From NCBI RefSeq assembly GCF_016462415.1, contig NZ_JAEMTF010000043.1, forward strand, positions 1 through 36,484: DNA of 36,484 nt, written 5' to 3'. This document shows, in pieces, positions 6,946-36,007 of the stretch; the stretch's first letter is position 1; the number at the start of each line of letters is the position of its first letter. The translations under genes were made by a program, and so were the position numbers. Source of the stretch: Williamsia sp. (GTDB taxonomy: Bacteria > Actinomycetota > Actinomycetes > Mycobacteriales > Mycobacteriaceae). The notes below the pieces were generated by a model, which was not told where the DNA came from, did no database searches, and saw only the letters and a list, made by a program, of their open reading frames with translations.

Positions 6946-7037
6946 GCGCCTCACTGTGCCAGAGTGATTTCTCGCGAGCGTGTGGAACCACCGCCGAGCG
7001 CACCCGAGACGATCACCGACCACGTGATGAGGGGCCC

Positions 7038-21891: not shown

Positions 21892-22514
21892 TATGCGGAT
21901 GCGGCACGTTCCCCGCAATCACGACCACCCGCACTGCCGCGATCGCGGAGACTCCGGACTTGTAGCCCGGGAGTCCTGACTGTCGACCAAGATCGCCACA
22001 TCGGCACCACGAATAACAAGTCCTGCGCTGCGGCGCTACACAAGGCGGGGGTCGGGATGTTCGCCAGAGTGCGGCTGCCTCCTGATCGTCAGCAACGGTC
22101 GGGGATCGCTCGGCGCGGCAATGTTCCCAGCGGTCACGCCGGTCCGAAGTTCGCCCTAAGCTCAGTAGGATCGCGCGCGCATCGTGTCGTCCTGGGTCAC
22201 CGGCCACGCCCTTGGATGACTGGCGATCACGCACCACCCACGCCTTCCGCCGACCCCGCCACCACTATGAGCTTTTGACCGGTCACTCCGAGCTCACCAG
22301 GGCCGTCTTGAGTTCGGCAAACGCCGGTAACCCCCGGCAAATCCGAGCAGCCAGACACGGCTTAATGGCCCGGACTCCGCCGCAGGAGGACTGAAAGACA
22401 GGACGCTTCGCGCGAAGTCGGAACTCCTGTCGAAACCGCCTGGCGTTTCGCGCGCTTGCAAGGTCATTGTGCGGCCCGGTGTCGTCACCTGCGGCTTGGA
22501 CTACACCGGATGTG
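21892..22514. other. Gene-free stretch between clpB and the biosynthetic cluster
   Basis: About 620 bases. Short open frames occur on both strands, but none has a convincing ribosome-binding site, a recognisable family or codon usage like its neighbours. Visible structure is limited to a nested inverted repeat at 22397-22431 and a pair CCGGTGT (22476-22482)/ACACCGG (22503-22509) just past the stop of the MDR gene, which may end the leftward operon. This is the left junction of the AfsA/FAS-like cluster and a candidate site for an insertion scar. I see no complete tRNA, integrase or att-like duplication. Confidence 0.5.
22397..22431. repeat. Nested inverted repeat downstream of the MDR gene
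   Basis: GACAGGA (22397-22403) pairs with TCCTGTC (22425-22431). Inside lies the perfect 12-bp palindrome CTTCGCGCGAAG (22406-22417). As RNA this could fold as a two-part stem. It lies 84 bases beyond the stop of the leftward operon, so it may be a terminator, or it may be unrelated. Confidence 0.4.
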
Positions 22515-23516
22515 CTAGCTGCGCCTCACGGCCAGAACTATCTTTCCCGTAGTCCCACCCGCCTCGAGGACGCGCTGCGCCGAGGCAGCGTCGTCGAGGT
22601 CGTACAGCGAATGGATCGGCACCGTAATGTCTTTCGCAGCGACATGAGCAACCGCCTTGTCAAGTGCTTGCTTGACCAGTCGCGGTCGCCGACGGGCGAA
22701 TGCCAGCGTGCTGTGGCCGATGATCCCCGCGCTAGCGAACCATAAGGTGTTGGCACTGAGCTTCGAGTCTTCGCCGCCGGATGCGTTGCCCATTGCGATC
22801 AATCGTCCTCCCGGCGCGAGTCGTTCTAGGTCGCGAGTCCTATTGGCGCCGCCGACGGGGTCGATGATGACGTCGAATTCTGCGTCACCGAGGTCCGCTT
22901 GAGAATTGGCGCGCACAACCACTCGGGTGTATCCGTGCTCGAGTGCGCTCCTCGACTTCGCCTTGGTACCCACAGTTCCGGTCACCGATTTGATGCCCGC
23001 CATTCGAGCGACCTGCCCGAACTGGGTACCGAATCCACCTGCAGCGGCATGGACCAGTACCGCATCACCCGGTCTCGTCCGTGCGACGTGTTCGGTAAGT
23101 AGGACCGCGGTCACCGTGTTCGATGGCATCGCCGCGTAGATCTGCAGCCGCTGCGCATCGAGATCATCGCCCGGGATCGCAGCCACGAGTTGCGAATTGA
23201 CACAAACTACCTCGGCGTACCCGCCCGAGTCGGTAATGGTCAGGGCGACCACCGCGTCACCCACGGCAAACTCGGTATCCCCCGGACCGATTTCCCGCAC
23301 GTGACCAGACACCTCGATCCCGGGGGTGAACGGTAGTGCGACGCCGATCGCCCCACGTCGGTACATCACCTCGGCAAAGTTGACACCGGCATAGGCGACA
23401 TCGATGGTCACCTCACCGGGGCCCGGTCGCGGGATCGCGACATCGGATACCGATAGCACCTCGGGGCCGCCGAAACGTTCGATCGTTACGGCGCACATTG
23501 TCTTCGAATCTGCCAT
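22515..23516 (-). CDS. MDR/quinone oxidoreductase-type enoyl reductase-like protein
   Basis: 333-residue medium-chain dehydrogenase/reductase of the zinc-free quinone oxidoreductase class. A GroES-like domain contains YAGVNFAEVMYRRG and LPFTPGIEVSG. The NADPH-binding motif HAAAGGFGTQFGQVA lies at about 156-170. PKS enoyl-reductase domains have the same architecture and loop, so a trans-acting enoyl reductase is a plausible role beside FabF/FabD/FabG/ACP, but quinone or alkenal reduction cannot be excluded. The ATG at 23516 is 5 bases after the stop of the preceding gene; an ATG at 23498 is an alternative. It is the last gene of the leftward biosynthetic operon. Confidence 0.88.
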   Translation of the reverse strand: MADSKTMCAVTIERFGGPEVLSVSDVAIPRPGPGEVTIDVAYAGVNFAEVMYRRGAIGVALPFTPGIEVSGHVREIGPGDTEFAVGDAVVALTITDSGGYAEVVCVNSQLVAAIPGDDLDAQRLQIYAAMPSNTVTAVLLTEHVARTRPGDAVLVHAAAGGFGTQFGQVARMAGIKSVTGTVGTKAKSRSALEHGYTRVVVRANSQADLGDAEFDVIIDPVGGANRTRDLERLAPGGRLIAMGNASGGEDSKLSANTLWFASAGIIGHSTLAFARRRPRLVKQALDKAVAHVAAKDITVPIHSLYDLDDAASAQRVLEAGGTTGKIVLAVRRS

Positions 23517-23521
23517 CGGAT

Positions 23522-23902
23522 TCAGAGGATTTCCGCGTCGGTGAACACATCGCGGGCGATCCACAGCGCACTGACCGCTCGTGGATGACCGGCGTAGAGG
23601 GCGACATGGAAAATGGTCTCGACGATCTCGGTTGGTGTGAGTCCGACGTTGAGCGCGCCGTTGATGTGTGTGGCGAGTTGACGTTCTGCCCCTCCGATCG
23701 CTGTCAGTACCGCGACGTTAATCATCTGCCGCTGCGCGAGGGTGATCCCCTCGCGACCGTAGACATCGGCGAAGCCGGCTTGCACTACGTACTCACCGAA
23801 ATCACTGCTGATCTCGTCGAAGCTCGCGCGGGTGGCGCGGGCCCTGTCCTCGCCGAGGATCCGGTTCATCAGTTCAAGTCCTCGAGTTGTTCGATCAGTC
23901 AT
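23522..23902 (-). CDS. Carboxymuconolactone decarboxylase family protein
   Basis: 126-residue all-helical protein of the CMD family, PcaC-like rather than AhpD-like: the C-x2-C pair of AhpD is absent. It shows the GITLAQRQMINVAVLTA helix and HINGALNVGLTPTEIVETI, then ALYAGHPRAVSAL. Classical members decarboxylate 4-carboxymuconolactone; many others in biosynthetic clusters have unknown or cyclisation/decarboxylation roles. ACGGAG lies about 8 bases before the ATG at 23902. It lies between the FabG- and MDR-like genes, so it probably acts on an intermediate or product of this line. No other catechol or protocatechuate pathway genes are nearby. Confidence 0.88.
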   Translation of the reverse strand: MTDRTTRGLELMNRILGEDRARATRASFDEISSDFGEYVVQAGFADVYGREGITLAQRQMINVAVLTAIGGAERQLATHINGALNVGLTPTEIVETIFHVALYAGHPRAVSALWIARDVFTDAEIL

Positions 23903-23954
23903 GTCGTGCACTCCGTTTCTGACGTTGTTGGACGGCGACGCGAAGCGTCGCCGA

Positions 23955-24665
23955 TCAAAGACCCATGCCGAATCCGCCGTCGACCGGTAGCACCGCACCG
24001 GTCACGTAACCCGCCTCCGGGCTGGCAAGAAAGTGAATTGCAGAGGCGATTTCATTGGGTGTCGCGAGGCGACCCACCGGTGTTGCCCTCATTACGTCAG
24101 ATCGCCGGGCTTCCGACAGCGACGCCGTCATGTCGGTGTCAACAAATCCCGGCGCCACGACGTTTACCGTGATGCCGCGGCTGGCCACCTCGTGCGCCAG
24201 CGATCGGGCCAGTCCGGTCAACCCGGCTTTGGATGCCGAGTAAGCGCTCTGGCCCCGCGCACCGGTGAAGCCGATCACGCTCGACACGAGAACAATCCGT
24301 CCGCCTCGCCGCGCCCGCAGCATCGAGGTAGCCGCGCGTCGCACCACGCGATAGGTGCCGGTTAGGTTGACCTGCAGTTGAGCATCGAACGCCTCAGTGT
24401 CCGTTCCCAGTACGAGTCCGTCGTGCGCACTGCCCGCGTTCGCCACCAGGACCTCGGTGCTCCCGTGCTCGCGCTCCGCGATGTCGAACGCTCGATCAAC
24501 GTCACCGTCGTTGGCGATGTCGCACTGCAGCGAGAGGGCGCCTACCACATCGGATGCAGAGCGGGATGTGACAGTCACATTGTCGCCCTGGTCGAGGAAT
24601 TGCTGGGCAACCGCCAGCCCGATACCGCGCGTTCCTCCCGTGACTACGACAGCGCGCGCACTCAT
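23955..24665 (-). CDS. 3-oxoacyl-ACP reductase FabG-like SDR
   Basis: 236-residue SDR that should reduce beta-ketoacyl-ACP to the hydroxy form with NADPH. It has TGGTRGIG (about 9-16), NAG near 77, Asn100, Ser129 (VSSV) and Tyr142/Lys146 (YSASK), and ends YVTGAVLPVDGGFGMGL as FabG proteins do. Length is a little under the usual 240-250. Its ATG at 24665 overlaps the FabD stop (ATGA), so it is translationally coupled to the acyltransferase. This context makes a role in the dedicated acyl chain more likely than housekeeping. Confidence 0.93.
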   Translation of the reverse strand: MSARAVVVTGGTRGIGLAVAQQFLDQGDNVTVTSRSASDVVGALSLQCDIANDGDVDRAFDIAEREHGSTEVLVANAGSAHDGLVLGTDTEAFDAQLQVNLTGTYRVVRRAATSMLRARRGGRIVLVSSVIGFTGARGQSAYSASKAGLTGLARSLAHEVASRGITVNVVAPGFVDTDMTASLSEARRSDVMRATPVGRLATPNEIASAIHFLASPEAGYVTGAVLPVDGGFGMGL

Positions 24666-25606
24666 GCCACCCGCCGATCTGTTCGCGCGAGGAACTCGTC
24701 GACGTGTTGCGGTGTGGCGCATCGATGCGCGCCCACACCTGGCAGGGATCTGCGGGCCAGGTTGGTCAGCACCTTTCCTGGCCCCACCTCGACTACTTCC
24801 GTGATGCCGAGTCGGAACAGCGTCTGCTGGCATTCCAACCAGCGCACCCGGCCGGTGAGCTGGCGGCCAAGCAGCTCGACGATCTCGGTCGCGGCAGTGT
24901 GTGGCGCAGCATCGACGTTGCAGACCACAGAACACTGGGCGTCGTCGAACGGTGCCAAATCAAGAGCACGGCCGAGTCTTGTTGCGGCAGGAGCCATCAA
25001 CGGCGAATGGTAAGCCCCGCCCACCAACAGCCGCCGTACGAGCCGGGCGCCCGCGTCCCTGAGATCGATCTCGACGTTAGCGACCGCCGCCTCAGTCCCG
25101 GAAATGACGATCTGGTCTGCCGAGTTCTCGTTGGCGGGCCAACAATCGCCATGCCGATCACAGATCGCTGCGACCGTTGCGGCGTCCAGACCAACCGAGG
25201 CGGCCATTACACCCAGCCGGTCCTGCGCAGCGCTGGCCATCGCGGCGCCGCGCTCTGCGACGAGCATCACACCGGCCTCGAAAGTCAGGGCACCTGCGGC
25301 CACCAACGCGGAATATTCGCCAAGGCTGTGACCCGCGACGGCTGCGGGAACAATATTGCGTCCCGAGTTCGCAGCCCGCGCGCGGAGATGATCGAGTGCA
25401 ATACAGCTGAGCACGAACGTGGCCACTTGAGCAGCGAACGGCGCACGCAGCTCGTCGTCGTCACACGACAGCAGCAGACGTTCGACATCGACGCCAAGCA
25501 GCTGCCCCGCAGTGTGCGCCAACTCGAAGGACTCTGTTCGGCGCCACGGCTCACCCATTCCTGCGCTCTGCGAACCCTGCCCAGGGAAGATCAGTCCGAT
25601 TGTCAT
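24662..25606 (-). CDS. Malonyl-CoA:ACP acyltransferase (FabD-like)
   Basis: 314-residue acyltransferase that loads extender units from CoA to the ACP. GQGSQ (9-13, oxyanion loop), nucleophile Ser94 in GHSLGEYSAL, Arg119 in AERGAAM (carboxylate-binding, so a malonyl-type substrate) and His200 in GGAYHSPLM form the expected active site. Length matches FabD. The ATG at 25606 begins directly before the IFPGQGSQ motif; longer upstream reading frame lies in the fabF gene. It is coupled to fabG downstream and lies 16 bases after fabF. It presumably serves the ACP encoded two genes upstream. Confidence 0.94.
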   Translation of the reverse strand: MTIGLIFPGQGSQSAGMGEPWRRTESFELAHTAGQLLGVDVERLLLSCDDDELRAPFAAQVATFVLSCIALDHLRARAANSGRNIVPAAVAGHSLGEYSALVAAGALTFEAGVMLVAERGAAMASAAQDRLGVMAASVGLDAATVAAICDRHGDCWPANENSADQIVISGTEAAVANVEIDLRDAGARLVRRLLVGGAYHSPLMAPAATRLGRALDLAPFDDAQCSVVCNVDAAPHTAATEIVELLGRQLTGRVRWLECQQTLFRLGITEVVEVGPGKVLTNLARRSLPGVGAHRCATPQHVDEFLARTDRRVA

Positions 25607-25622
25607 ATCTCGTCCAATCTGG

Positions 25623-26864
25623 TCACGCTGCGGTGAGGACGACGACGGCGTTGTGCCCGCCGAAGCCGAATGAGTGGCTGGTCGCCACCTCGACCGCCGC
25701 CCTGCGCGGCGATGTGTGGACGATGTCGAGATCCACCGCCGGGTCCACGGTGTCGAGGTTGGCAGTCGGGGGAATCTCATCGGACTGGACAGCCAAAATC
25801 GTGTACGCCGCCTCGATGGCACCGGCGGCACCAAGAGTGTGCCCGGTGACGCCTTTGGTGGATGTGACGATGGGGCGGTCTCCATAGACGGCACGGATTG
25901 CCCGGGCCTCGGTCACGTCATTAAGCGGCGTCGACGTGCCGTGCGCATTGATGTGATCGACATCATTCGGCTGAACGTGAGCATCCTGCAGAGCCAACCG
26001 AATCGCAGAGACGGCGGCAGATCCCGTCGGATCGGGAGCAGTGGGGTGATAGGCGTCGCACGATGCGGCGAAACCCTGGACGCGCGCACGCACCCTCGCA
26101 CGTCGGGCACGGGCATCGTCGGGCCGTTCCAAGACCAGAATCCCCGCACCCTCGCCGGCCACAAACCCGTCACGATCGCGGTCGAACGGGCGCGATGCGG
26201 TCGACGGATCGAGACTGCGTCGAGACAATCCACCGAGACGGTCGAGGCTGCCCATAATGAACGGGCTGATCGCCGATTCTGCGCCACCCGCTATCACGAC
26301 GTCGGCCGAATCGGCGAGGAGCAAGTCACGCGCGATGCCAATGGCGCTCGCGCCGGACGCGCATGCGGTTGCTGCGACCAAACTCGGCCCGTGCGCACCG
26401 AGATCGATGCTCACCGCTCCGGCCACCATGTTCAGCATGGCCATCGGCACAGTCAGCGCCGACACGGCATCGATACCCGATCGCATCATCACCTGGTGCT
26501 GTTTCTCCCAGGTCTGAGACCCGCCGAGGGAATTACCCACGACGACGGCGACACGCGCACCGTCCCATGACGACGAGTCGAGGCCGGCGTCGGCCACCGC
26601 CTGCCGTGCCGCTGCCACCGCCAGCTGACTAAATCGGTCCAGCCGCCAGGCGACGCGACGCCCCAGCACCCCGTCAGCGTCAAAATCGAGGGCACGGCAG
26701 GAAAAGTTGACACTGCGCCCCTCCAGAGCAGGATCCGCAGTCGCCGTCGACCGCGCCGCGCATAGAGTCGCCCAGTTCGCATCCACGCCGATGCCCGCTG
26801 GCGTGATCAATCCCAATCCGGTCACCGCGACGTCCCTGACCAGCCCGCCAGGGCGCGCGATCAC
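25623..26864 (-). CDS. Beta-ketoacyl-ACP synthase II (FabF-like)
   Basis: 413-residue elongating condensing enzyme. Cys168 (ATACASGAS), His308 (NAHGTSTPLND), Lys337 and His342 (STKGVTGHTLGAAGA) give the complete Cys-His-His set, so this is an active KS rather than a chain-length-factor. There is no partner KS-beta gene, which argues against an aromatic type II polyketide and for aliphatic chain extension. Translation starts at a GTG overlapping the ACP stop (GTGA), so ACP and KS are made in step. Confidence 0.95.
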   Translation of the reverse strand: MIARPGGLVRDVAVTGLGLITPAGIGVDANWATLCAARSTATADPALEGRSVNFSCRALDFDADGVLGRRVAWRLDRFSQLAVAAARQAVADAGLDSSSWDGARVAVVVGNSLGGSQTWEKQHQVMMRSGIDAVSALTVPMAMLNMVAGAVSIDLGAHGPSLVAATACASGASAIGIARDLLLADSADVVIAGGAESAISPFIMGSLDRLGGLSRRSLDPSTASRPFDRDRDGFVAGEGAGILVLERPDDARARRARVRARVQGFAASCDAYHPTAPDPTGSAAVSAIRLALQDAHVQPNDVDHINAHGTSTPLNDVTEARAIRAVYGDRPIVTSTKGVTGHTLGAAGAIEAAYTILAVQSDEIPPTANLDTVDPAVDLDIVHTSPRRAAVEVATSHSFGFGGHNAVVVLTAA

Positions 26865-27100
26865 GCCGCGCTCCTCTGTAGGAACACATCGACGAAGCCG
26901 TCGAGCGTGGCCGCGTCGCCGATCTCTTTCTCGGAAAGGGCGACACCCGATTCAGCCTTGAGGATGAGAGCGAGTTCGAGAAGCATCAGCGAGTCGAAGC
27001 TCAGTTGATCGTAGGGCGCTGTGAAGGAGATCTCGTCACGCGGGACGCCGAAATCGTCGACTAGGACCTCGACCACTCGGGTACGGATGTCAAATGCCAT
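26861..27100 (-). CDS. Acyl carrier protein
   Basis: 79-residue acidic helical carrier. The phosphopantetheine attachment serine is Ser37 in LSFDSLMLLELAL, here FDSL instead of the common ADSL. Helix I (DIRTRVVEVLVDDFGV) and helix IV are recognisable. It tethers the growing acyl chain for the FabF, FabD, FabG and FabH proteins encoded beside it. Its start codon lies inside the end of the fabH gene (11-base overlap) and its stop overlaps the fabF start. No phosphopantetheinyl transferase gene is in the window, so a host enzyme must modify it. Confidence 0.94.
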   Translation of the reverse strand: MAFDIRTRVVEVLVDDFGVPRDEISFTAPYDQLSFDSLMLLELALILKAESGVALSEKEIGDAATLDGFVDVFLQRSAA

Positions 27101-28166
27101 TGCTGTCTCCTCTGTCGGATTTCGTTACTGCCGCCTCACCCTGTTGGGGAGGAAGTTCGGGCCAGATCAAAATTGTGGAACCCCACGTCGCCCCGCCCCC
27201 GAACGCGCTGAGCAGAACGCGTTCACCCGCGCGGATCTCGCCGCGAGCATGCCCGTCTCGCAGGGCGAGCGGGATCGACGCAGCGGCGGTGTTTCCGACC
27301 TGGTCGAGGTTCACCACCACTCGATCGACGTCGAGACCGAGCTGAAGGGCGACCGCGCGCAGGATGCGGATGTTGGCCTGATGGCCGACGAAACGGTCGA
27401 TGTCGGCGACCGTGAGCCCACCGCGCGCCAGCACCGACTGCGCCGATGAAGTCATACGTTCGACCGCGTGCATGAAGACCGTGCGGCCCTCCATTCGGAA
27501 GTACATGTCGTCTTCAGCGGCAGCGACCCCGAGCCCTCGTTGCCTCGAACCACCCGCCGGAACGGTGATCAGATCCCGTAGCGAACCGTCACTGCCTAGA
27601 TCGACGTGTCCCACTGCACCGGGTTCGTTCGAGAAGCCAGCTCGGAGAAGCACAGCGCCGGCACCGTCACCGAACACCGACATCGTGGCCCGGTCGTCTC
27701 GGTCGAGGATCGTAGAGAACGTGTCAGCGGCGATGACGAGAACCGTGTGCGCGCGACCGCTCTCGATGTACCCGGCCGCCACGGACAGGGCGTATAGAAA
27801 GCCGCTGCAGACGGCGGCTAAATCGAAAGCCGGCACCGTTCCGAGTCCCAACGCCGCGGCGACCTCGGGCGCAGTTGCGGGGCACGGACGATCGGGAGTC
27901 GTGGTCGCAAGGACGACCACGTCGACGTCTGCCGTGCCAGCCGATTCCAGTGCCTGGGCGCCGGCTTCCACAGCGAGATCCGACGTGGCCCGCTCGGGTG
28001 CCGAGATCCGTCGCTCCACGACGCCCGTGCGGCTGCGAATCCATTGATCGTCGGTCTCCAACCATGTGGCCAGGTCGTTATTGGTGAGCATCGCCGAGGG
28101 CACACTGGCGCCGACGCCGGCAATTACCGACGAGCGGCGACGGCCGGTTTCCGGCCCGCGACTCAC
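27090..28166 (-). CDS. Beta-ketoacyl-ACP synthase III (FabH-like)
   Basis: 358-residue initiating condensing enzyme that joins an acyl-CoA starter to malonyl-ACP. The triad is intact: Cys120 (AAVCSGFLYAL), His262 (FVGHQANIRIL) and Asn292 (QVGNTAAAS). The TRTG-like SRTGVVERR segment and DDQWI near the N-terminus are also typical. The GTG at 28166 is chosen because it overlaps the AfsA-like stop (GTGA); the open frame continues upstream only as a shadow. It is somewhat longer than the usual 315-335. Its presence implies a starter chosen for this pathway rather than chains taken from the host synthase. Confidence 0.93.
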   Translation of the reverse strand: MSRGPETGRRRSSVIAGVGASVPSAMLTNNDLATWLETDDQWIRSRTGVVERRISAPERATSDLAVEAGAQALESAGTADVDVVVLATTTPDRPCPATAPEVAAALGLGTVPAFDLAAVCSGFLYALSVAAGYIESGRAHTVLVIAADTFSTILDRDDRATMSVFGDGAGAVLLRAGFSNEPGAVGHVDLGSDGSLRDLITVPAGGSRQRGLGVAAAEDDMYFRMEGRTVFMHAVERMTSSAQSVLARGGLTVADIDRFVGHQANIRILRAVALQLGLDVDRVVVNLDQVGNTAAASIPLALRDGHARGEIRAGERVLLSAFGGGATWGSTILIWPELPPQQGEAAVTKSDRGDSNGI

Positions 28167-29158
28167 GAGCGCACCCGTTCCGGATCTGCGGCGGTGCGTG
28201 CTCCAAACGCCTTGGCGAAAGGCGTCGCCGGCTCGTGTTCGACCTCGACCTCGAACACCGCGGCCGACGACTCGCACTGCACTACCTCTATCTCCACCAA
28301 GCCCTCGGCGGACACCCTGCGAGCAATCATCGTGGCCGGCTCGTCGAGCTCCAAGAAGCGTCGAAACTCTGCAGTCAATCCGTTGACGGATGAGCCGCCA
28401 GTGGTCGCCAGGGCGAGTTGTTTAGCCGCCTCGGTCACACCCAGTCCCGGCACGTGATCGAGAGAGTGGTCGAAGATCGACGGGTGATTCACCGCCGCCG
28501 ACAACGTCGCCTGCATGCCGCCATCTCTGTGTGGGGCCAAGTTGTGGATCATGATGTTGTTCGGGTCCCGACGACCGACACCCACCGGCGGTCGCATCGG
28601 CGTGAAGTCGAGACGATCCGAGGTCGGTGGATCCCCGATACGACGCATACGGCGCAGCGCGGCATAGGAATCCGGGCTCAGGTAGGTGGCGGTCATCCGA
28701 ACGGTGCCGACGAGGAAATCGTCGACCTCCAGAGCCATCGAGTACGCATACCCACGGGCAGCACCCCGATCACGGATGCACTCGGCAGTGATGGTGATTC
28801 GCAACTCTCGAGGACATCGGCCATCGCCTACCGAAGGCGCTACCACATCAAGGTCCCAGTGGTTGAGGATGAACTTGTGGTCGATCGGAACCTCGAACGC
28901 CAGGTGTGCGCAGCATGTCTCCGCTTGTCGGCAGCACTCGAGCAGCAGCATCGGATCCAGACGGTCCGCGCAGTGGTCGGAGAAATAATGGTGGCGCCGT
29001 GGCAGCTGGCAGCATGCAACAAAACTGTTAGCTCCGGTGGTTGCGAAGTCGGTGAGAAAGACCTCACCGACCGCCGCACGGTGAACCCACCGGCGGTCTA
29101 CCGGTTGGGTTGAGATCTCGTCGAGAGTGGCGCGCGGCGCCGTTATCGTCTGCTTCAT
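28163..29158 (-). CDS. AfsA-like protein (A-factor biosynthesis hotdog domains)
   Basis: 331-residue double-hotdog protein resembling AfsA/ScbA. Repeat 1 (about 24-160) includes VHRAAVGEVFLTDF, RRHHYFSDH and DPMLLLECCRQA. Repeat 2 (about 198-310) includes NHPSIFDHSLDHVPG followed by Glu243 in VTEAAKQ, the catalytic-helix pattern of the family. In streptomycetes AfsA joins a beta-ketoacyl group to dihydroxyacetone phosphate, the first committed step to gamma-butyrolactone signals; some relatives belong to other natural-product clusters. AGGAG lies 9 bases before the ATG at 29158, which decides the start over upstream in-frame ATGs. It is the first gene of the leftward operon and is coupled to fabH. 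Product class is inferred from family. Confidence 0.85.
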   Translation of the reverse strand: MKQTITAPRATLDEISTQPVDRRWVHRAAVGEVFLTDFATTGANSFVACCQLPRRHHYFSDHCADRLDPMLLLECCRQAETCCAHLAFEVPIDHKFILNHWDLDVVAPSVGDGRCPRELRITITAECIRDRGAARGYAYSMALEVDDFLVGTVRMTATYLSPDSYAALRRMRRIGDPPTSDRLDFTPMRPPVGVGRRDPNNIMIHNLAPHRDGGMQATLSAAVNHPSIFDHSLDHVPGLGVTEAAKQLALATTGGSSVNGLTAEFRRFLELDEPATMIARRVSAEGLVEIEVVQCESSAAVFEVEVEHEPATPFAKAFGARTAADPERVRS

Positions 29159-29440
29159 GCGGATTGACTCCTGTGACTCTGTCGGGCAGAAACCTGTTGG
29201 CGCAAAGTGACTGGACAGACTGTGCTGGGAAGCAACGTCGGTCACCTCAGGAAGTCTCATCGTCGGCGCACCGGTGAACCAGACCCGCCCGTGCCTGGTA
29301 CTGCGAAGGCATGGTGCCCGGCGGCCGCGCCGCTGACTGGCCCTCCCAGAGCCATGCTTGTCCGAGCCTGGCCCACGTAGACGATCCGGGCCAGAGTGAG
29401 TTCGTCGGCCAGGTGACGACGACACGAGAGGAGCCCGACC
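29159..29440. promoter_or_regulatory. Divergent control region of the biosynthetic cluster
   Basis: 282-bp gap between the two arms (AfsA-like gene leftward, KAS III-like gene rightward) that must carry both main promoters. I see no clear consensus -35/-10 pairs and no obvious AT-rich 22-bp autoregulatory element of the kind bound by butyrolactone receptors. A distant 7-bp inverted pair, CTGGCCC near 29337 and GGGCCAG near 29388, lies upstream of the right arm. Confidence 0.5.
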
Positions 29441-30496
29441 ATGTACGCCACTTCACCCCCGATCGGGCTTCGTGCGACGACGTGGCTACCGGTGAGCACC
29501 GAATCGGCAGCAGACCGGGTGGACTCGGGATTTCTTTCACAGACTGAGGTCCTCGAGTCGGGCTACCGCGAGCTGCCGGTGAGCGTCGAGGCGCCGCCAA
29601 TCATGGCGGTGCGGGCCGGACGAGCTGTAGTCGACGGCAGCGGCGTGGACCCGTCACAGATCACCCTGAACACACACGCCTGGATCTACCACCAAGGCCA
29701 CGATTTCTGGGCGCCGGCGCACCATGTCGCGTCCGAGCTCGGTCTCTTGAACGCGATGCCGGTCGGTATCTCGCAAATGTGCAACGGCGCGGGTATCGCA
29801 CTCGAACTCGCCGTGGACCACCTACGCTCTCCGACGCGGGGTGACACCGTCTTGATGACTACCGCCGACCGGTTCTGCGAACCCGGATTCGACCGTTGGC
29901 ACGGGGATTACGGACTCTGGTACGGCGACGGTGCCACTGCCGCACTGCTCCGATCTACACCGGCCGACGGCGACTTACATCTGTTGTCGGTGGCGACGGA
30001 CGCCGATTCGTCCGCCGAGAAAATGCACCGGGGCGACGACGAGTTCACCGATTCGCCGATGGCTATCTCCAGCGTCATCGACATCCGGCGTACGAAGCGC
30101 GCCTATCTGGCGCGGCACGGCAAGGATGCGTTCGCCGCCACGGTCGCCGATCGAATCCCAGCGCTGCTGACCACCGCTTTCACCGCCGCCGGTCTATCTC
30201 CAAACGACCCTCAACTCGCATCGGTCGTTCTGCCCAGGTTGGGAAGCAAGGCACTCACGGCCGCATACCGGCCAGCCGTCGCCCAGGTGACCCGCGCCCC
30301 GGTACGCGACGTCGGCGCGGCGACCGGACACCTCGGCGCTGGCGATCTGATCGCCAATATGGCGCTACTCGAGGACGATTCGCTATGTCCACCTGGACAG
30401 ATGGCGGTCGTGCTGTCCGCCGGCGGCGGGTTCAGTTGGACCGCTGCAGTCATCCGCAAACCGTCACCGACAACCACCGATAAGAGAAAGAGCTGA
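29441..30496 (+). CDS. KAS III-like protein with non-canonical active site
   Basis: 351-residue thiolase-fold protein of the ketoacyl-ACP synthase III group. The nucleophile is kept (Cys114, ISQMCNGAG) and DYGLWYGDGATAALL fits the family core. The FabH histidine position reads VVLPRLG (Pro265), and the GNT asparagine motif reads GHLGAGD (His297, Asp302). Such KAS III relatives in biosynthetic clusters often act as acyltransferases forming esters or thioesters rather than decarboxylative condensing enzymes; that role is inferred here. GAGAGG precedes the ATG by about 8 bases. It contains a rare TTA codon (in GDLHLL). It is the first gene of the rightward arm and ends one base before the monooxygenase start. 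Confidence 0.85.
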   Translation: MYATSPPIGLRATTWLPVSTESAADRVDSGFLSQTEVLESGYRELPVSVEAPPIMAVRAGRAVVDGSGVDPSQITLNTHAWIYHQGHDFWAPAHHVASELGLLNAMPVGISQMCNGAGIALELAVDHLRSPTRGDTVLMTTADRFCEPGFDRWHGDYGLWYGDGATAALLRSTPADGDLHLLSVATDADSSAEKMHRGDDEFTDSPMAISSVIDIRRTKRAYLARHGKDAFAATVADRIPALLTTAFTAAGLSPNDPQLASVVLPRLGSKALTAAYRPAVAQVTRAPVRDVGAATGHLGAGDLIANMALLEDDSLCPPGQMAVVLSAGGGFSWTAAVIRKPSPTTTDKRKS

Positions 30497-30497
30497 C

Positions 30498-32114
30498 ATG
30501 ACACCTCATTGCATCGAGAAGGATGTCCTGATCGTCGGCGCCGGCCCTGTCGGCCTCGTCATGGCGTGCGAGCTGTTACAGCAAGGCTTCTCCGTTCGCC
30601 TCATCGAGCGCGGATCCAGTTCGGCGGTCCACTCACGCGCTGTCATCACCTGGCCGCGCAGCCTGGAGCTACTGCGGCGTATCGGTGTTGCCGACGAACT
30701 GGCGGACTCCGGCGCGCATCTGGATTCGGTGTCGTACTACTCGGGCGATCGACGCCTGGGCGTGCTGAAGATGAGCAAGCTGAACGACACTCCGTACCCC
30801 TTCGGGCTGTGCAATCCACAGCATCGGACCGAGGAGATCATCCGTCGGCGGGTTGTGGAACTCGGTGGGCACATCGAGTCGAACGTGGCCCTGATCGGAC
30901 TAGATAACACCGGCGCCCGGCCCGTTGCCACCTTGCTGCGGTCCGGCGATGGCACCATCGAGCACGTAGAACCGGATTGGCTCATCGGCGCCGACGGGTC
31001 ACGCAGCACAGTGCGCGAGCTGCTGAACATCCAGTTCGCCGGAACCGGCCAGGACGTGCTGTTCGCCATCTGCGATGGCCCACTCGAGGCGTCGTTGCCC
31101 GAGCACGAGATGCTGTACTGCTACCGCGACGGCGGAGCCATGGGACTGGCACCGTTCGGGGACGGGATCTTTCGACTCGCATGCGCGGTCCCGGTATGGA
31201 ACGACGACGACACTCCACCACGAGAACTCTTTCAGGAGAACCTCGATCGCGTCGTCCCTTTCGATGCGCGCGTCGGCGAGCTGCAGTGGACCACAGTGTT
31301 TCGGGCACGGCGCCGGACTGCGGCGCAGTTCCGGTCGGGCCGATGCTTCTTGATCGGCGACGCCGCACACATCTTCAGCGCCGCCGGCTCGCAGGGCATG
31401 AACACCGGCTTTCAAGACGCAGTGAACTTGGCCTGGAAGCTCGCAGGCGTTCGGGCCGGAACGCTATCGGCGACGATCCTTGACACCTACGATCACGAGC
31501 GCCGCCATTCCGCAGAACGGGTGTCCTCGATAACTGCGAAGCAGACGAGCTGGGGCTTGATTCGTCGCCCCGCTCGTGTAGCGGTTCGAGACCTTCTGGT
31601 GCGCGGTGCAGAGCGCACGGGGACCTTGCAACGAGTTGTGACGCCACTGATGAGTCAGCTGACCACCAATTACGCGTCCAGTGGGGAATCCGCTCGTGCC
31701 GACATCCGGTGGTGGCCGCGCTCGGTGCGCCCAGGCGAACGGCTTCCGGTGTTCTCCCAGGCGATCTCGACCGGCGATGGGTGGCCCATCATCGCTGCCG
31801 ACCGACTCACCGTGGCTCTATGGTCCGGGGGCACTCGCGACGTGGAATGGCAACGGACCTGCACCGCCATAACCGATGCCCTCGACCCAACGATCCCGGT
31901 GGCCGATCTGTCGGGGTGGCCGGCGTTCACGCGTCTGCTGCCAGCGGAACGGTGCGCGCTTCTCTTGCGCCCCGACGGACATGTGCACGATCTGTGTCGT
32001 GATCCCGACACAGCACAGGTTCGTCAGATGCTGGCCCTCGCTGGAGTGGGAACTGCCTATGAGGGCACCGCACAACGGGTCGACAACATTGAGCCAGCCG
32101 AGGTCTCACTATGA
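30498..32114 (+). CDS. FAD-dependent monooxygenase (p-hydroxybenzoate hydroxylase fold)
   Basis: 538-residue class A flavoprotein monooxygenase using FAD, NAD(P)H and O2. It shows the dinucleotide motif GAGPVG (14-19) with Glu37 for ribose, the DG motif GADGSRSTVREL (165-176) and the GD motif IGDAAHIFSAAGSQGMNTG (286-304), plus a C-terminal thioredoxin-like extension as in PgaE/RdmE/MhpA. These enzymes hydroxylate aromatics or perform epoxidation or Baeyer-Villiger-like oxidations in polyketide pathways. The ATG follows the previous stop after one base, and the stop overlaps the next gene (ATGA). A rare TTA codon occurs in the first helix (ELLQQG). Confidence 0.93.
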   Translation: MTPHCIEKDVLIVGAGPVGLVMACELLQQGFSVRLIERGSSSAVHSRAVITWPRSLELLRRIGVADELADSGAHLDSVSYYSGDRRLGVLKMSKLNDTPYPFGLCNPQHRTEEIIRRRVVELGGHIESNVALIGLDNTGARPVATLLRSGDGTIEHVEPDWLIGADGSRSTVRELLNIQFAGTGQDVLFAICDGPLEASLPEHEMLYCYRDGGAMGLAPFGDGIFRLACAVPVWNDDDTPPRELFQENLDRVVPFDARVGELQWTTVFRARRRTAAQFRSGRCFLIGDAAHIFSAAGSQGMNTGFQDAVNLAWKLAGVRAGTLSATILDTYDHERRHSAERVSSITAKQTSWGLIRRPARVAVRDLLVRGAERTGTLQRVVTPLMSQLTTNYASSGESARADIRWWPRSVRPGERLPVFSQAISTGDGWPIIAADRLTVALWSGGTRDVEWQRTCTAITDALDPTIPVADLSGWPAFTRLLPAERCALLLRPDGHVHDLCRDPDTAQVRQMLALAGVGTAYEGTAQRVDNIEPAEVSL

Positions 32115-32944
32115 GCACCGAGCCCGCATCCACCCCCGTTGCCCGTCGATTCGCGGGCAAGGCCGCATTGGTCACCGGCGCCGACCGTGGAACCGGCCAG
32201 GCGCAAGCCATCCGACTCGCCGCGGAGGGTGCCGATTTAGCTCTTGTGGTCCAGACCGGGACCGCAGACGAAACGGTGGACGCCATCTCCGCCCGCGGTG
32301 GTTCGGTTAGCGTCCACGCCGCCGACGTTCGCGATCTGTCGGCAACCCAAGGGGCGATCGATGCCGCGGCGGACTCGCTGGGCAGGATCGACATCGTCTG
32401 CGCCACTGCGGGCGTCAATGGCGGTAACGCCCCGATGTGGGAGATCGAACCGGAGATTTTCCGAAACACCATGGAAACGAACATTTTCGGCACATGGCAC
32501 GTACTGCGCGCCGCGGTGCCCCATGTCCTCCGGCAGGGCCCCGGCGGCGCAGTTATTGTCATGGGTTCGACGACCGAAGCGCGAGGAGTAGGTACCGCAA
32601 GCCATTACGCCGCAAGCAAACACGGCGTCCTCGGTTTGATGCGCTCACTGGCTGCCGAGCTGGGTCCACGCGGGATCCGGGTCAACGGAATAGTACCCAC
32701 CAACATCGACACCGTCATGTTCCACAACCCGGAGACCTACGCGCTGCTCCTACCTGACGAAGAGTCGCCCGACCGTGCGCAGGTCGCCGACGCAGCGCGC
32801 CGATGGCACGAGTTGCCAATCGGGTGGGTGGGTTGCGACGACATCGCAGCGGCGACCGCGTTCCTCGCCTCCGACGAGGCTCGATACATCTCCGGTACAT
32901 CTTTGCGCGTAGACGGAGGACTTCTCAACAAGTGGCCGGGCTGA
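32111..32944 (+). CDS. SDR resembling mycofactocin-coupled dehydrogenases
   Basis: 277-residue SDR with TGADRGTGQAQAIRLAAEGAD at the N-terminus (given here as VTGADRGTGQ then AIRLAAEGAD), catalytic Ser in MGSTTE, YAASK and a long C-terminal insertion FHNPETYALLLPDEESPD. The GADRGTGQA loop, SKHGVLGLMRSLAAELG and the FLASDEARYISGTSLRVDGG end resemble SDRs that hold NAD tightly and pass electrons to mycofactocin, although the N-terminal insertion of those enzymes looks shortened. No mycofactocin genes are in the window. The start overlaps the monooxygenase stop (ATGA). It likely reduces or oxidises the cluster product or an intermediate. A TTA codon is present (GADLALV). Confidence 0.88.
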   Translation: MSTEPASTPVARRFAGKAALVTGADRGTGQAQAIRLAAEGADLALVVQTGTADETVDAISARGGSVSVHAADVRDLSATQGAIDAAADSLGRIDIVCATAGVNGGNAPMWEIEPEIFRNTMETNIFGTWHVLRAAVPHVLRQGPGGAVIVMGSTTEARGVGTASHYAASKHGVLGLMRSLAAELGPRGIRVNGIVPTNIDTVMFHNPETYALLLPDEESPDRAQVADAARRWHELPIGWVGCDDIAAATAFLASDEARYISGTSLRVDGGLLNKWPG

Positions 32945-33006
32945 AGCGCACTCTGGCCCCACGTTCAGAGCCCACCGCGCACTCCCCTAACGACTGAGGA
33001 CACGAC

Positions 33007-34446
33007 ATGACACAACGGACTACCCCCGAGTCGACGGACGTCAACCAAAGCCTGACCCTGACGGTGGTGTGCATTGGATTCGCGATGGTGATCGTCGACA
33101 CGACCATCGTCAACGTCGCATTGCCCGCCATCAGAGACGATTTCGGCAGCGACCTGAGCACCCTGCAATGGGTCGTCGACGGCTACATTATGGTTCTCGC
33201 CGCGCTACTCCTCTCCGGTGGAGCGATGGTCGACCGCCTCGGTGCAGCTCGGATGTTCCGGGTCGGCGTCGCCCTGTTCACGATCGCATCAGTGTTGTGT
33301 GGTTTCGCACCCGACAGCATGGTGCTGATCTCCGCCCGGCTCGTCCAGGGGGTCGCCGCCGCGCTCCTCATGCCGGCGGCCATGGCCCTGTTGACTCAGG
33401 CCTATCCCGAGCCTGCGTCGAAAGCGCGTGCGGTGGCACTGTTTACGACGGTGGCCGGCAGCCCACAGGCATTCGGGCCGGTACTTGGCGGGTTGCTGGT
33501 CTCGACCATCGGCTGGCGCAGCATCTTCTTTCTCAACATCCCGGTCGGCACGGTGACCTTGCTGCTGGCCAGCCGGGGCGGGCTACCCCGCCCTGCTCTC
33601 CGTGCAGACCGTGGCACCGATGTTGCCGGCCAAGTGCTCGCCGTCCTCGCCCTCATCTCGGTCACCGGCGCACTGATCGAGGCCGGCGAGAAAGGCATCA
33701 CGTCGGTCGTACCCATCACCGCGGCGGTGTCGGCAATCGTGTTCACCATCGCGCTCGTCCTTCGCGAGCGGTCGGCGCGTTCGCCGTTGCTCCCGGCCAA
33801 ACTCCTCGGTGCCCCTGGACTGTCGGCGTACGTTGTGGTCGGCCTGTTGCTCTTTGGCGCCTATTACGGACTGGTGTTCGCGCTCAGTCTCTACCTGCAG
33901 CAGGTTCACCATTTGAGCGCCTTCGCCACCGGTCTACAGTTCTTGCCCTCTGCGCTGCCGATCTTTTTGCTGCCGGTGATCGCCGGACGCCTAGCCAACC
34001 GGTGGGGCCCGCAACGTGTGGTGATCACAGGCCTGGCGACAGCCGCGGTGGGCGCCCTCTCCCTGCTGGCTGTCGGTTCCTCGAGCAGCCCGCTCATGCT
34101 TTCGATCTCTCTGTTCTTGCTGGGATGCGGCGTGGGTCTGACGGTCGGGCCCCAGATCACGTTGGTCATCAATGCGGCGCCACCTCAATACGCAGGGATC
34201 GCGAGCGGGTTACTCAACGCCGGACGCCAAACCGGAAGCGTATTGGGTGTGGCGGTACTCGGCGCCCTTGCAGGCGCAAGCGACCGTGTCGCAGGCCTGC
34301 ACGGTGCCGTGGTGACGGCCGCAGTAATCCTCGCGGTTGCCGTCCTGTTGGGCGGGTTGTCACGGCGAAGCCGTTCGGACGAAAAACCTCACCGCAGCGA
34401 GCCGGCCAACGCCGGGCGGGCCGACGACACGACCCGGGTCTCGTGA
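33007..34446 (+). CDS. DHA2 family MFS exporter
   Basis: 479-residue, about 14-helix proton antiporter. Motifs: GFAMVIVDTTIVNVALPAI in helix 1, GGAMVDRLGAARMFRVG loop motif A, and VAGSPQAFGPVLGGLL around motif C. The last 25 residues are a polar tail. It most likely exports the product of this cluster or gives self-protection. GAGGACACGAC precedes the ATG, 62 bases after the SDR stop, within the same rightward arm. Its stop overlaps the GTG of the HAD phosphatase gene. It contains a TTA codon (SGLLNAG). It is distinct in sequence from the DHA2 pump at 15597-17102. Confidence 0.93.
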   Translation: MTQRTTPESTDVNQSLTLTVVCIGFAMVIVDTTIVNVALPAIRDDFGSDLSTLQWVVDGYIMVLAALLLSGGAMVDRLGAARMFRVGVALFTIASVLCGFAPDSMVLISARLVQGVAAALLMPAAMALLTQAYPEPASKARAVALFTTVAGSPQAFGPVLGGLLVSTIGWRSIFFLNIPVGTVTLLLASRGGLPRPALRADRGTDVAGQVLAVLALISVTGALIEAGEKGITSVVPITAAVSAIVFTIALVLRERSARSPLLPAKLLGAPGLSAYVVVGLLLFGAYYGLVFALSLYLQQVHHLSAFATGLQFLPSALPIFLLPVIAGRLANRWGPQRVVITGLATAAVGALSLLAVGSSSSPLMLSISLFLLGCGVGLTVGPQITLVINAAPPQYAGIASGLLNAGRQTGSVLGVAVLGALAGASDRVAGLHGAVVTAAVILAVAVLLGGLSRRSRSDEKPHRSEPANAGRADDTTRVS

Positions 34447-35171
34447 CGACACCGCCACGCGGCATCGCATTCTTCGACGTCGACGAGACACTCATCACCA
34501 CCAAAAGCATGTTCCGCTTCCTCGAATTCTTTATGGCAGCGGTTGGCAGACCGCCCGCCGTCTATGCGGCCGCGATCCGGCGTCTGACCGACGCTGCACA
34601 CCGGGGCGTTCCGCGCCGTGAGACGAACGCGTTGTTTTACGAAAACCTTGCCGGGTGGAATCGTCAGGACATAGCCGACATAGGGCAGGCATGGTTCAAC
34701 GCCGAAATGCGCTTGGGGCACCTCTTCCACCCGCCGGTCGCACAGCGGCTGGCTGTGCACCAGGCACAGGGCACGCCGACGGTGTTGGTTTCTGGATCGT
34801 TCTCGGCCTGCCTCGATCCAATCGGACGGCATGTAGGAGCTGATGAATGGTTCGGAACGGTTCCCACGGTCGACGACGATCGATACACCGGCGCCGTGTC
34901 GTCGGTTGTGATCGGACCTGACAAGGGGCGGATCGCACGTCGACTCATCGCATCGCGTGACGTGGCAGCGGAGCACTGTTGGGCATACGGAGACCACGCC
35001 TCAGACATCGACCTGTTGCGGTCGGTGGGACGGCCGTTCGTGGTCGGCTCCGATCCGGCGCTGCACACTGCAGCGAGGATCGGCGGGTGGCAGGCGCTAG
35101 ACGGTATCTCCACCGCCCGGCCGGCTCTCGTGCCTGCTACCCAGATTGCAGGTCCGGCGGCGAGTATTTAG
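34443..35171 (+). CDS. HAD-IB family phosphatase (SerB-like)
   Basis: 242-residue haloacid dehalogenase-superfamily hydrolase. Motif I is FFDVDETLI (Asp12, Asp14), motif II VLVSGSF (Ser117), motif III Lys161 (GPDKGRIA) and motif IV YGDHASDIDLL (Asp184, Asp188), so a Mg-dependent phosphatase with all catalytic residues. The GTG at 34443 overlaps the exporter stop (GTGA); the long open frame upstream is only the exporter gene read in another frame. In gamma-butyrolactone pathways a phosphatase must remove the phosphate brought in from dihydroxyacetone phosphate, and this enzyme is a candidate for that step. A general phosphomonoester substrate is the alternative. The last four bases overlap the convergent regulator. 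Confidence 0.9.
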   Translation: MTTPPRGIAFFDVDETLITTKSMFRFLEFFMAAVGRPPAVYAAAIRRLTDAAHRGVPRRETNALFYENLAGWNRQDIADIGQAWFNAEMRLGHLFHPPVAQRLAVHQAQGTPTVLVSGSFSACLDPIGRHVGADEWFGTVPTVDDDRYTGAVSSVVIGPDKGRIARRLIASRDVAAEHCWAYGDHASDIDLLRSVGRPFVVGSDPALHTAARIGGWQALDGISTARPALVPATQIAGPAASI

Positions 35172-36007
35172 ACGGCGGTCTGTTCGGCGGCTGACCGGGC
35201 GAGCTCAGCGAGCTTGACAGCGGTCGGGCTTCCTTTGGGCGCCGACCACGTGACGACAGTCAATCGGGGGTCCGCGGGAAGTGGCAGGCCGGTGTAGAAC
35301 ATATCCAGAACACCGACTTCGGGATGGTTAATGACGCGGCGGCCGTGCGACCGCGGCTTGACCTCGTGTTCATTCCAGAACTTGGCGAACAATTCGCTGG
35401 CTTCCAGCATCTGCTCGATCAGTTGCGAAAGTCGCGGTTCGTCGCGGTGATGGGCAAGGTCGTACCGGAGCCAGGCCACCTGATCTCGCGCCACCTCGTC
35501 CCAGTCCCCGTACAGCGCGACCGCATCGGGCTCGAGGAACAGACGGCGCGTCACGTTGGTGACCTCCACGCGGCCGTCGATACCGAATGCTCTGGCCCCC
35601 ACTGCGTTCGAGGCGACGACGTCCGTCCACGGCGTTAGCACGAAAGCGGGAAGCGTATCACTGAGGGAACGGATCAGTTGATGCAATTCGGTCGGGATGC
35701 TAACCGGATCGACCCGTCCGCTTGCACTCTCGATCACCGCTATCCGGTACAGGTAAGACCGCGTCGAGCGGTCAAGATCCGATGCGTCAGCAATCGCGTT
35801 GAGAACCGACACAGACGGATTGAGCGCTCTGCCCTGCTCCAATTTGGTGTAGTACTCCACGCTCAGGCCAGCAAGCTCGGCAAACTCTTGTCGTCTAAGA
35901 CCAGGCACTCGACGGTTGAGATTCGTTCTCTCACCCGGAGCAACTGTCATCTTCGCCCTGTTCGATTTCAGAAAGGACGCGAAGGCGTCGTCCAACGGAT
36001 GTGGCAT
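35168..36007 (-). CDS. XRE family regulator with MmyB-like ligand domain
   Basis: 279-residue regulator. The N-terminal helix-turn-helix is at about 30-62 (RRVPGLRRQEFAELAGLSV then YYTKLEQGR). The rest is the MmyB-like ligand-binding domain with DVVASNAVGARAFG, a central RDQVAWLRYDLAHHRDEPRL and a C-terminal PEVGVLDMFYTGLPLP. MmyB, from the methylenomycin cluster, is a positive regulator, and such domains are thought to bind fatty-acid-like ligands. The ATG at 36007 has GGGGGT 9 bases upstream; an upstream in-frame extension lacks homology. Convergent with the HAD gene by four bases, it is the obvious candidate cluster regulator. No AfsR/ArpA-type butyrolactone receptor is present. Confidence 0.9.
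   Translation of the reverse strand: MPHPLDDAFASFLKSNRAKMTVAPGERTNLNRRVPGLRRQEFAELAGLSVEYYTKLEQGRALNPSVSVLNAIADASDLDRSTRSYLYRIAVIESASGRVDPVSIPTELHQLIRSLSDTLPAFVLTPWTDVVASNAVGARAFGIDGRVEVTNVTRRLFLEPDAVALYGDWDEVARDQVAWLRYDLAHHRDEPRLSQLIEQMLEASELFAKFWNEHEVKPRSHGRRVINHPEVGVLDMFYTGLPLPADPRLTVVTWSAPKGSPTAVKLAELARSAAEQTAV

Follow-up and report, generated by a model that had tools for sequence, protein, structure and literature searches.

Organisation of the gene block

A block of fourteen genes at positions 22,515-36,007 of a contig from Williamsia sp. (Mycobacteriaceae; NZ_JAEMTF010000043.1, assembly GCF_016462415.1) encodes a protein of the AfsA family together with enzymes of a type II fatty acid synthase (FAS II), tailoring enzymes, an exporter, and a regulator. 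The whole contig, 36,484 nucleotides long, is the stretch of DNA that was analyzed and is referred to as the window. The block is a real, acquired, and conserved cluster of the butenolide-synthase type, the logic of which is closest to that of the sphydrofuran and methylenomycin clusters, with AfsA in the place of AvrD. An earlier sequence-only reading had described two divergent arms and a convergent regulator, and all frames were recovered at the positions it had given, eight in the left arm, five in the right arm, and one for the XRE regulator. The features are listed below with their positions in the window.

21,897-22,514, no strand: left edge of the island; the match of the sister genomes next to clpB stops at 21,894-21,934
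22,515-23,516, minus strand: MDR oxidoreductase, zinc-type, enoyl/quinone reductase-like (ADH_zinc_N_2, 62.2 bits; open reading frame (ORF) open to 23,564)
23,522-23,902, minus strand: carboxymuconolactone decarboxylase (CMD)-like protein (PF02627, 63.5 bits; ORF open to 23,998)
23,955-24,665, minus strand: FabG-type ketoreductase (PF13561, 187.6 bits; ORF open to 24,935)
24,662-25,606, minus strand: FabD, malonyl-CoA:acyl carrier protein (ACP) transacylase (PF00698, 93.4 bits; GHSLG motif; ORF open to 25,894)
25,623-26,864, minus strand: FabF, 3-ketoacyl-ACP synthase II (KAS II) (PF00109/PF02801; Cys/His/His motifs)
26,861-27,100, minus strand: ACP, 79 amino acids (DSL site at residue 36)
27,090-28,277, minus strand: FabH, KAS III (ACP_syn_III; NCBIfam fabH models over cut-off; Cys/His/Asn motifs)
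28,163-29,158, minus strand: AfsA-type butenolide synthase, double hotdog (two PF03756 domains; candidate ATG 29,158; ORF open to 29,425)
29,159-29,440, no strand: possible divergent promoter region between the arms, placed by the candidate start codons
29,441-30,496, plus strand: second KAS III, DpsC/CerJ type (ACP_syn_III; Cys114, His297, Asp302)
30,498-32,114, plus strand: class A FAD monooxygenase (PF01494, FAD_binding_3, 231.9 bits)
32,111-32,944, plus strand: SDR, nearest to the mycofactocin-coupled subfamily (PF13561, 168.9 bits)
33,007-34,446, plus strand: DHA2-family MFS exporter (PF07690, MFS_1, 179 bits)
34,443-35,171, plus strand: HAD-IB phosphatase (PF12710, 116.5 bits on ORF 33,069-35,171; TIGR01490, 130.5 bits, over the cut-off of 98.3)
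35,168-36,007, minus strand: XRE regulator with MmyB-like ligand-binding domain, convergent (PF17765, MLTR_LBD, 140.5 bits, and HTH_31)

Pfam domains over the cut-off are present in 13 of the 14 genes. For several frames of the left arm, the possible starts lie too far upstream; going by the onset of homology, AfsA may start at 29,158, while the homology of FabH begins near residue 48 and a GTG at 28,166 is a candidate start. With the second KAS III starting at 29,441, the two divergent starts would be about 280 bases apart; one imperfect inverted repeat lies between them at 29,367-29,413. The XRE frame is open from 36,073, and position 36,007 is an ATG within it. No tRNA was found in the window.

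Assignments at the level of NCBIfam models are graded. FabG exceeds the cut-off of one FabG subfamily model (232.8 vs 222 bits), and the ACP has only sub-cut-off matches to ACP models in NCBIfam (E 7e-5 at best). Scores under the cut-off were also obtained for FabD against fabD (244.4 vs 260.9 bits), for the CMD-like protein against PcaC (77.2 vs 155.7 bits), for the right-arm SDR against TIGR03971 (253 vs 300 bits), and, just under it, for the exporter against TIGR00711 (226.9 vs 230.2 bits). The best solved-structure match of the FAD monooxygenase is a polyketide oxygenase (PDB 4k2x). What we take to be the active-site motifs of FabF, FabH, and FabD and the ACP serine are all present. Within the fourteen genes, Pfam and NCBIfam searches matched no dehydratase family, and the MDR protein is at most a candidate enoyl reductase. 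Thus, the description of the block as a complete private set of chain-forming enzymes coupled to AfsA was too strong, whereas a private set for initiation and elongation, kept as a syntenic block, was upheld.

Conservation in other actinobacteria

Comparison of gene order across genera revealed a syntenic block. In Nocardia sp. alder85J (L076), 13 of the 14 genes are found in identical order and orientation. Protein identities in the left arm are 58% for CMD, 59% for FabG, 56% for FabD, 72% for FabF, 59% for ACP, 67% for FabH, and 43% for AfsA, and those in the right arm are 58% for the second KAS III, 68% for the FAD monooxygenase, 79% for SDR, 70% for the MFS exporter, 57% for HAD, and 56% for XRE. 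As the same 13-gene order is kept at identities of 43-79%, the arrangement is more than chance, and the 14 genes are predicted to act as one conserved unit. The core genes are also found in several other genera, where they form a single run.

A scan with the second KAS III, which was built on a three-sequence alignment, yielded 44 named loci, 17 of which contain a match to the window AfsA. Loci with both genes are found in Streptomyces, Actinokineospora, Kitasatospora, Microbacterium, Rhodococcus, and Nocardia. In these 17 loci, AfsA is accompanied by FabH and HAD (17 each), FabF, AKR, and FAD monooxygenase (16 each), MFS (14), ACP (6; short and easily missed), XRE and FabD (4 each), FabG (3), and CMD, SDR, and MDR (2 each); some of the MFS, FAD monooxygenase, AKR, and SDR matches lie near 30% identity and may be generic, and L104 and L107 are, judged by length, Rhodococcus contigs that were also sampled as L037 and L036. 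Two controls were available. The 27 KAS III loci without AfsA contain FabH in 3, HAD in 3, AKR in 1, and FabF in 14 cases, and many of the latter look like loci for type II polyketide synthases (PKS). The other control derives from 40 AfsA-selected loci, 2 of which contain the KAS III; the remaining 38, all from one family and some under 20 kb, have FabH, FabF, and HAD in one case each, AKR in 4, FAD monooxygenase in 12, and MFS in 13. Measured against these controls, FabH, HAD, and AKR are specific markers of the AfsA and KAS III loci, whereas FAD monooxygenase and MFS are weak ones. In a class-wide sample, the KAS III was matched at E 1e-40 in 26 of 394 genomes, and AfsA was found in 4 of the 19 foreign stretches examined.

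Some loci show further variations. L098, which is not among the 17, has a divergent AfsA, which came up in Pfam and in comparison with AfsAs of other clusters; it lies in a 465-amino-acid frame (6880-8277) with one AfsA domain matched in the C-terminal part, beside HAD, FabH, and KAS III. The KAS III of S. himastatinicus (L113, 10,001-11,067) is matched in two segments, with a stop codon in the range, and is possibly broken or frameshifted. Seven loci without AfsA (L096, L099, L101, L102, L105, L114, and L115) carry two DpsC/CerJ-type KAS III genes each, some together with an SDR gene, and a Frankia locus (L091) has a response-regulator-type gene upstream of FabH. A recurrent smaller group (L038-L040, L044-L048, L063, L073, and L074) combines AfsA with an MFS transporter and a FAD monooxygenase; AfsA lies near 9.5 kb in most of these, the group also occurs in the sister genomes G001, G003, and G004, and there are no FAS genes among the matches.

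Evidence for acquisition

Beside clpB, four of the seven sister genomes in the genus match the window at 81-91% by blastn up to 21,894-21,934. To the right of 21,934, no further match of at least 100 bases was found in 14-15 kb of sister sequence from these four genomes. At E 1e-20, none of the seven sister genomes yielded a hit for the second KAS III, and 22 of 401 genomes of the family have some match to it; AfsA is matched in 111 of 401, the own genome being included in both counts. The best-scoring foreign AfsAs of the family are 31-38% identical, with short pieces reaching 48%. The location of clpB and the cluster on one contig makes contamination unlikely. According to these comparisons, the block at 22,515-36,007 is a predicted horizontally acquired island. 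It is seen from its left border only, as the contig stops at 36,484, 477 bases past the candidate XRE start codon, and the right border lies beyond this end.

Plasmid searches turned up records of AfsA and KAS III. A gene for a Dak1-Dak2 dihydroxyacetone kinase, which by its family makes dihydroxyacetone phosphate (DHAP), is located at 8431-10,092 of the window; it was considered as the DHAP supplier of the island and rejected, since it is present in 7 of 8 genomes of the genus, including the own.

The AfsA protein

AfsA contains two PF03756 domains over the Pfam cut-off (141.8 bits). A phylogenetic tree was calculated from 62 sequences, in which 24 of 26 AfsAs from FAS-associated loci share one branch (support 89/77), and the two outside it are the second paralogues of L106 and L167. 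The label "cluster" or "stand-alone" changes twice on this tree as compared to a mean of 20 changes in shuffles, and the AfsAs of the window and of Nocardia form a pair (100/100). The cluster label was set by a script requiring at least two of FabH, FabF, and KAS III within 9 kb; L123, a short stretch, was moved to the cluster set by hand, and L120, the window itself, was dropped. The cluster set includes L054, which has another PKS-like neighborhood, as well as the second paralogues; near-copies remain in both sets, the stand-alone row L059 was kept despite an internal stop codon, and the program issued a long-branch warning for L054, L092, and L116, among others. L106 and L167 each have two AfsA genes per cluster, the second being very divergent, with Lys at the Arg of the second domain.

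The two groups also differ in individual residues. Window position 170 is Thr in 23 of 26 cluster AfsAs and Ile in 35 of 36 stand-alone ones. Position 335 is Arg in 36/36 stand-alone AfsAs, while the 26 cluster sequences have Arg in 21 cases, Lys in 3 (the window and the two second paralogues), Gly in 1 (Nocardia), and Ser in 1. Glu163 is found in all 62 rows, and the window AfsA keeps the other conserved residues as well (E163, R166, Q167, D319, H320, D323, H324, E332, and Q336). We take the Glu and Arg of the two hotdog helices to be E78 and R243 of ScbA, position 335 presumably being ScbA Arg243, which is said to be catalytic; a literature search found no paper supporting these assignments. 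Because neither the window protein nor that of Nocardia has the common Arg, their substrate or activity may differ.

No solved homologue of AfsA was found by sequence at E up to 1. A structure model of medium confidence (mean pLDDT 69, pTM 0.67) has hotdog-fold neighbors in the PDB, including thioesterases and dehydratase/hydratase folds, with TM-scores by query of 0.29-0.48 and root mean square deviations of 6.7-13.6. Model and matches support only the hotdog fold and are too weak for geometry.

Dedicated ketosynthases and the relation to AvrD loci

The best paralogues of the cluster FabF and FabH in the own genome are 38% identical, as compared to 72% and 67% identity to the Nocardia proteins. 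Both are thus predicted private enzymes of the cluster. As in clusters of the sphydrofuran and methylenomycin type, the butenolide synthase of the window is accompanied by a FabH and an ACP of its own.

AvrD (PF05655) is encoded in 9 of 384 genomes of the class and has no match in the own genome. In four of the nine AvrD loci (L206, L208, L210, and L212), a FabH with 54-61% identity to the one of the window is present. L210 resembles the sphydrofuran island (PMC11195616) in gene content, with AvrD, FabH, ACP, a histidine phosphatase, FAD monooxygenase, a CMD family protein, AKR, KAS III, XRE, and MFS; its FabH and FAD monooxygenase are 61% and 38% identical to those of the window. In a tree calculated from 32 FabH rows, the FabHs of AvrD clusters lie among those of AfsA clusters, and the two paralogues of the own genome, together with L054, are set apart (100/100). 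Some FabHs of AfsA loci (L092 and L169) form another divergent group. L195 carries the scripted label "o" in this tree although it is from the genome of AvrD locus L210, and L223 was left out.

The best PDB matches of the second KAS III are DpsC (4xs7; E 1.4e-45) and CerJ (3s3l; 8e-39). Cys114, His297, and Asp302, the latter two forming an H-x4-D motif, are invariant with L036 and L037, and we assume for them the roles of Cys, His, and Asp in KAS III of this type. Based on these matches and the retained residues, acyl transfer to a hydroxyl group would be one reasonable role of this protein, and a starter role another. Unlike those of DpsC and CerJ, its gene is located next to afsA and not to an aromatic type II PKS.

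Comparison with known systems

Outside the systems compared here, the salinipostin (spt) cluster of Salinispora contains an AfsA homologue with pathway-specific acyl enzymes; it was considered as the closest relative and not retained as such. The closest parallel in gene content is the sphydrofuran island GI-9 of S. ambofaciens, for which the part of the report considered lists a KAS III-family protein, AKRs, a CMD, a FAD monooxygenase, a phosphatase, an ACP, a KAS III, a ketosynthase, an MFS transporter, helix-turn-helix regulators, and AvrD (PMC11195616). The cluster proper is assigned there to genes 3924-3936, which excludes the KAS III-family gene 3923 (PMC11195616). Apart from the AKRs, these functions also lie beside the butenolide synthase of the window, which differs in having AfsA instead of AvrD, a HAD instead of a histidine phosphatase, and FabG and SDR instead of AKRs and a thioesterase; no FabD is listed in that part of the report. 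This likeness is one of gene lists, as the protein identities come from the similar locus L210 and not from S. ambofaciens.

In the methylenomycin (mmy) cluster of S. coelicolor, Mmr belongs to the MFS proteins and MmyB is the regulator, and both have counterparts in the window. According to the available part of a study, this cluster also has a butenolide synthase (MmyD), a flavin monooxygenase, and the resistance gene mmr (PMC12593393). MmyD is proposed there to act on acetoacetyl-MmyA made with MmyC, which is supported by deletion of mmyD (PMC12593393). In contrast to the window protein, MmyD is AvrD-like; the malonyltransferase comes from primary metabolism, MmyO is LimB-like, and the same text mentions no KAS II (PMC12593393).

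AfsA family members are also found in two other settings. In Rhodococcus jostii RHA1, the family member GblA is encoded in a gblA-gblR-gblE locus with non-conserved flanks, for which the accessible text mentions no private FAS (PMC5735094), so that the earlier statement of a different design holds. In the gladiostatin/gladiofungin PKS, an AfsA-family domain releases the chain as a butenolide, and a candidate phosphatase gene is present (PMC7756379, PMC7756420); as far as these excerpts go, it is the C-terminal domain of a trans-AT modular PKS, not a free-standing protein with FAS II enzymes. Replacement of Glu by Ala in GlaE, for which the guide designed for its AfsA domain was used, left gladiofungin production unchanged according to the part seen (PMC7756420). 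No cluster of AfsA with a private FAS was found in print, where coverage of subscription journals was slight and absence is not proven. The view that the architecture is not a characterized pathway is thereby supported as regards published clusters and weakened by the parallels in sphydrofuran and methylenomycin biosynthesis.

Proposed pathway and alternatives

The block is probably an acquired cluster for an exported small metabolite of butenolide or furan type. Malonate would be loaded onto the private ACP by FabD, followed by initiation by FabH, elongation by FabF, and reduction by FabG and perhaps the MDR protein; the families of these enzymes are evident, their order is presumed, and any dehydration would be taken from primary metabolism. 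AfsA would then condense the β-ketoacyl chain with DHAP or a similar sugar phosphate to a phosphorylated butenolide, a chemistry that has been demonstrated for the AfsA-like domain of gladiostatin biosynthesis in the portion of that study considered (PMC7756379). The phosphate group would be removed by the HAD enzyme, a role suggested by its presence beside AfsA in all 17 KAS III-selected loci. Subsequently, the FAD monooxygenase, SDR, and CMD-like protein may oxidize, reduce, and possibly decarboxylate the ring, while the DpsC/CerJ-type KAS III may add a second acyl unit or supply the starter. The MFS exporter would release the product, and the MmyB-type XRE protein would regulate the cluster. 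A further-reaching version for the clusters of the window and Nocardia is rather doubtful: an AfsA without the Arg of the second domain and with a new condensation partner or reaction, combined with private FAS II and DpsC/CerJ-type acyl transfer, would give a new class of diacylated butenolides or furans, AfsA and AvrD being interchangeable on one dedicated FabH family.

Several observations weigh against this reading. The full layout of the window has been seen in only one relative, and even there the MDR protein has no match in the block of Nocardia L076. The second KAS III occurs mostly in other settings, as 27 of the 44 named loci and 15 of the 19 further stretches have no match to the window AfsA. 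In L091/L165 and L166, two genomes of one genus, FabH, FabF, AKR, HAD, and KAS III occur with no AfsA or AvrD found within about 20 kb, so AfsA is dispensable to the FabH-FabF-HAD-KAS III package. The AfsA itself passes the ScbA/BarX equivalog model (NF041195) only marginally (202.7 bits; cut-off 200), it has Lys335, and the Nocardia protein Gly, where Arg is otherwise common (57 of 62 rows), and the support of the cluster branch (89/77) is modest and under the strict threshold. As to the AvrD relation, five of the nine AvrD loci have no match to the window FabH, the KAS III of L210 is only 25% identical to that of the window, the CMDs of the two loci do not align in BLASTP, and the FabH tree is weak in its deep forks (27/73).

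Among the alternatives, AfsA could condense the chain with a pentulose (phosphate) instead of DHAP, as proposed for MmyD and AvrD, giving a methylenomycin- or sphydrofuran-like skeleton. The gene content and FabH indeed resemble those of some AvrD clusters, CMD and FAD monooxygenase are shared with the sphydrofuran island, and loss of the Arg could mark a new partner. However, the protein is an AfsA and not an AvrD, and named members of the AfsA family are reported or proposed to use DHAP in the text available (PMC7756379), which leaves this route unlikely.

AfsA enzymes are usually read as signal makers, and the cluster could make an A-factor-type γ-butyrolactone with its own acyl supply. Passing the ScbA/BarX model agrees with this, SDR and phosphatase could complete a γ-butyrolactone, and the MmyB-type domain presumably can bind an acyl ligand. 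Nevertheless, a signal is quite unlikely to be the product. A Pfam search limited to the fourteen genes found no TetR-type domain as in the receptors ArpA, ScbR, and GblR, cluster and stand-alone AfsAs tend to separate in the tree, and the FAD monooxygenase, CMD, and exporter are more than a γ-butyrolactone needs. Rhodococcus γ-butyrolactone loci are described, in the part of the study considered, with gblA, gblR, and often gblE and with non-conserved flanks (PMC5735094).

It is very unlikely that AfsA has given up butenolide synthesis and acts as a hotdog dehydratase or acyl-handling protein in a small type II polyketide or fatty acid pathway. This role would fill the place of the unmatched dehydratase, fits the double hotdog with thioesterases and dehydratase/hydratase folds among the neighbors of its model, and could go along with the lost Arg of the window and Nocardia proteins, but the remaining residues conserved among AfsAs are retained and the HAD gene continues to accompany AfsA. 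That two unrelated operons are neighbors by chance is highly improbable: the arms are divergent and every gene family is common, yet both arms are in order in Nocardia and the core genes form one run in other genera.

Significance

The sequence-only reading had left open whether the block makes an AfsA-type signal or another acyl product. For this AfsA cluster, signal-making is less likely than a tailored and exported product, because no TetR-type domain is found among the fourteen genes, while tailoring genes and an exporter are present. If the subfamily of AfsA proteins tied to a private FAS II holds in several genera, some loci labeled as no more than "butyrolactone" would make tailored, exported products. 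In addition, the similar FabHs in AfsA- and AvrD-type clusters make the idea of interchangeable release modules testable.

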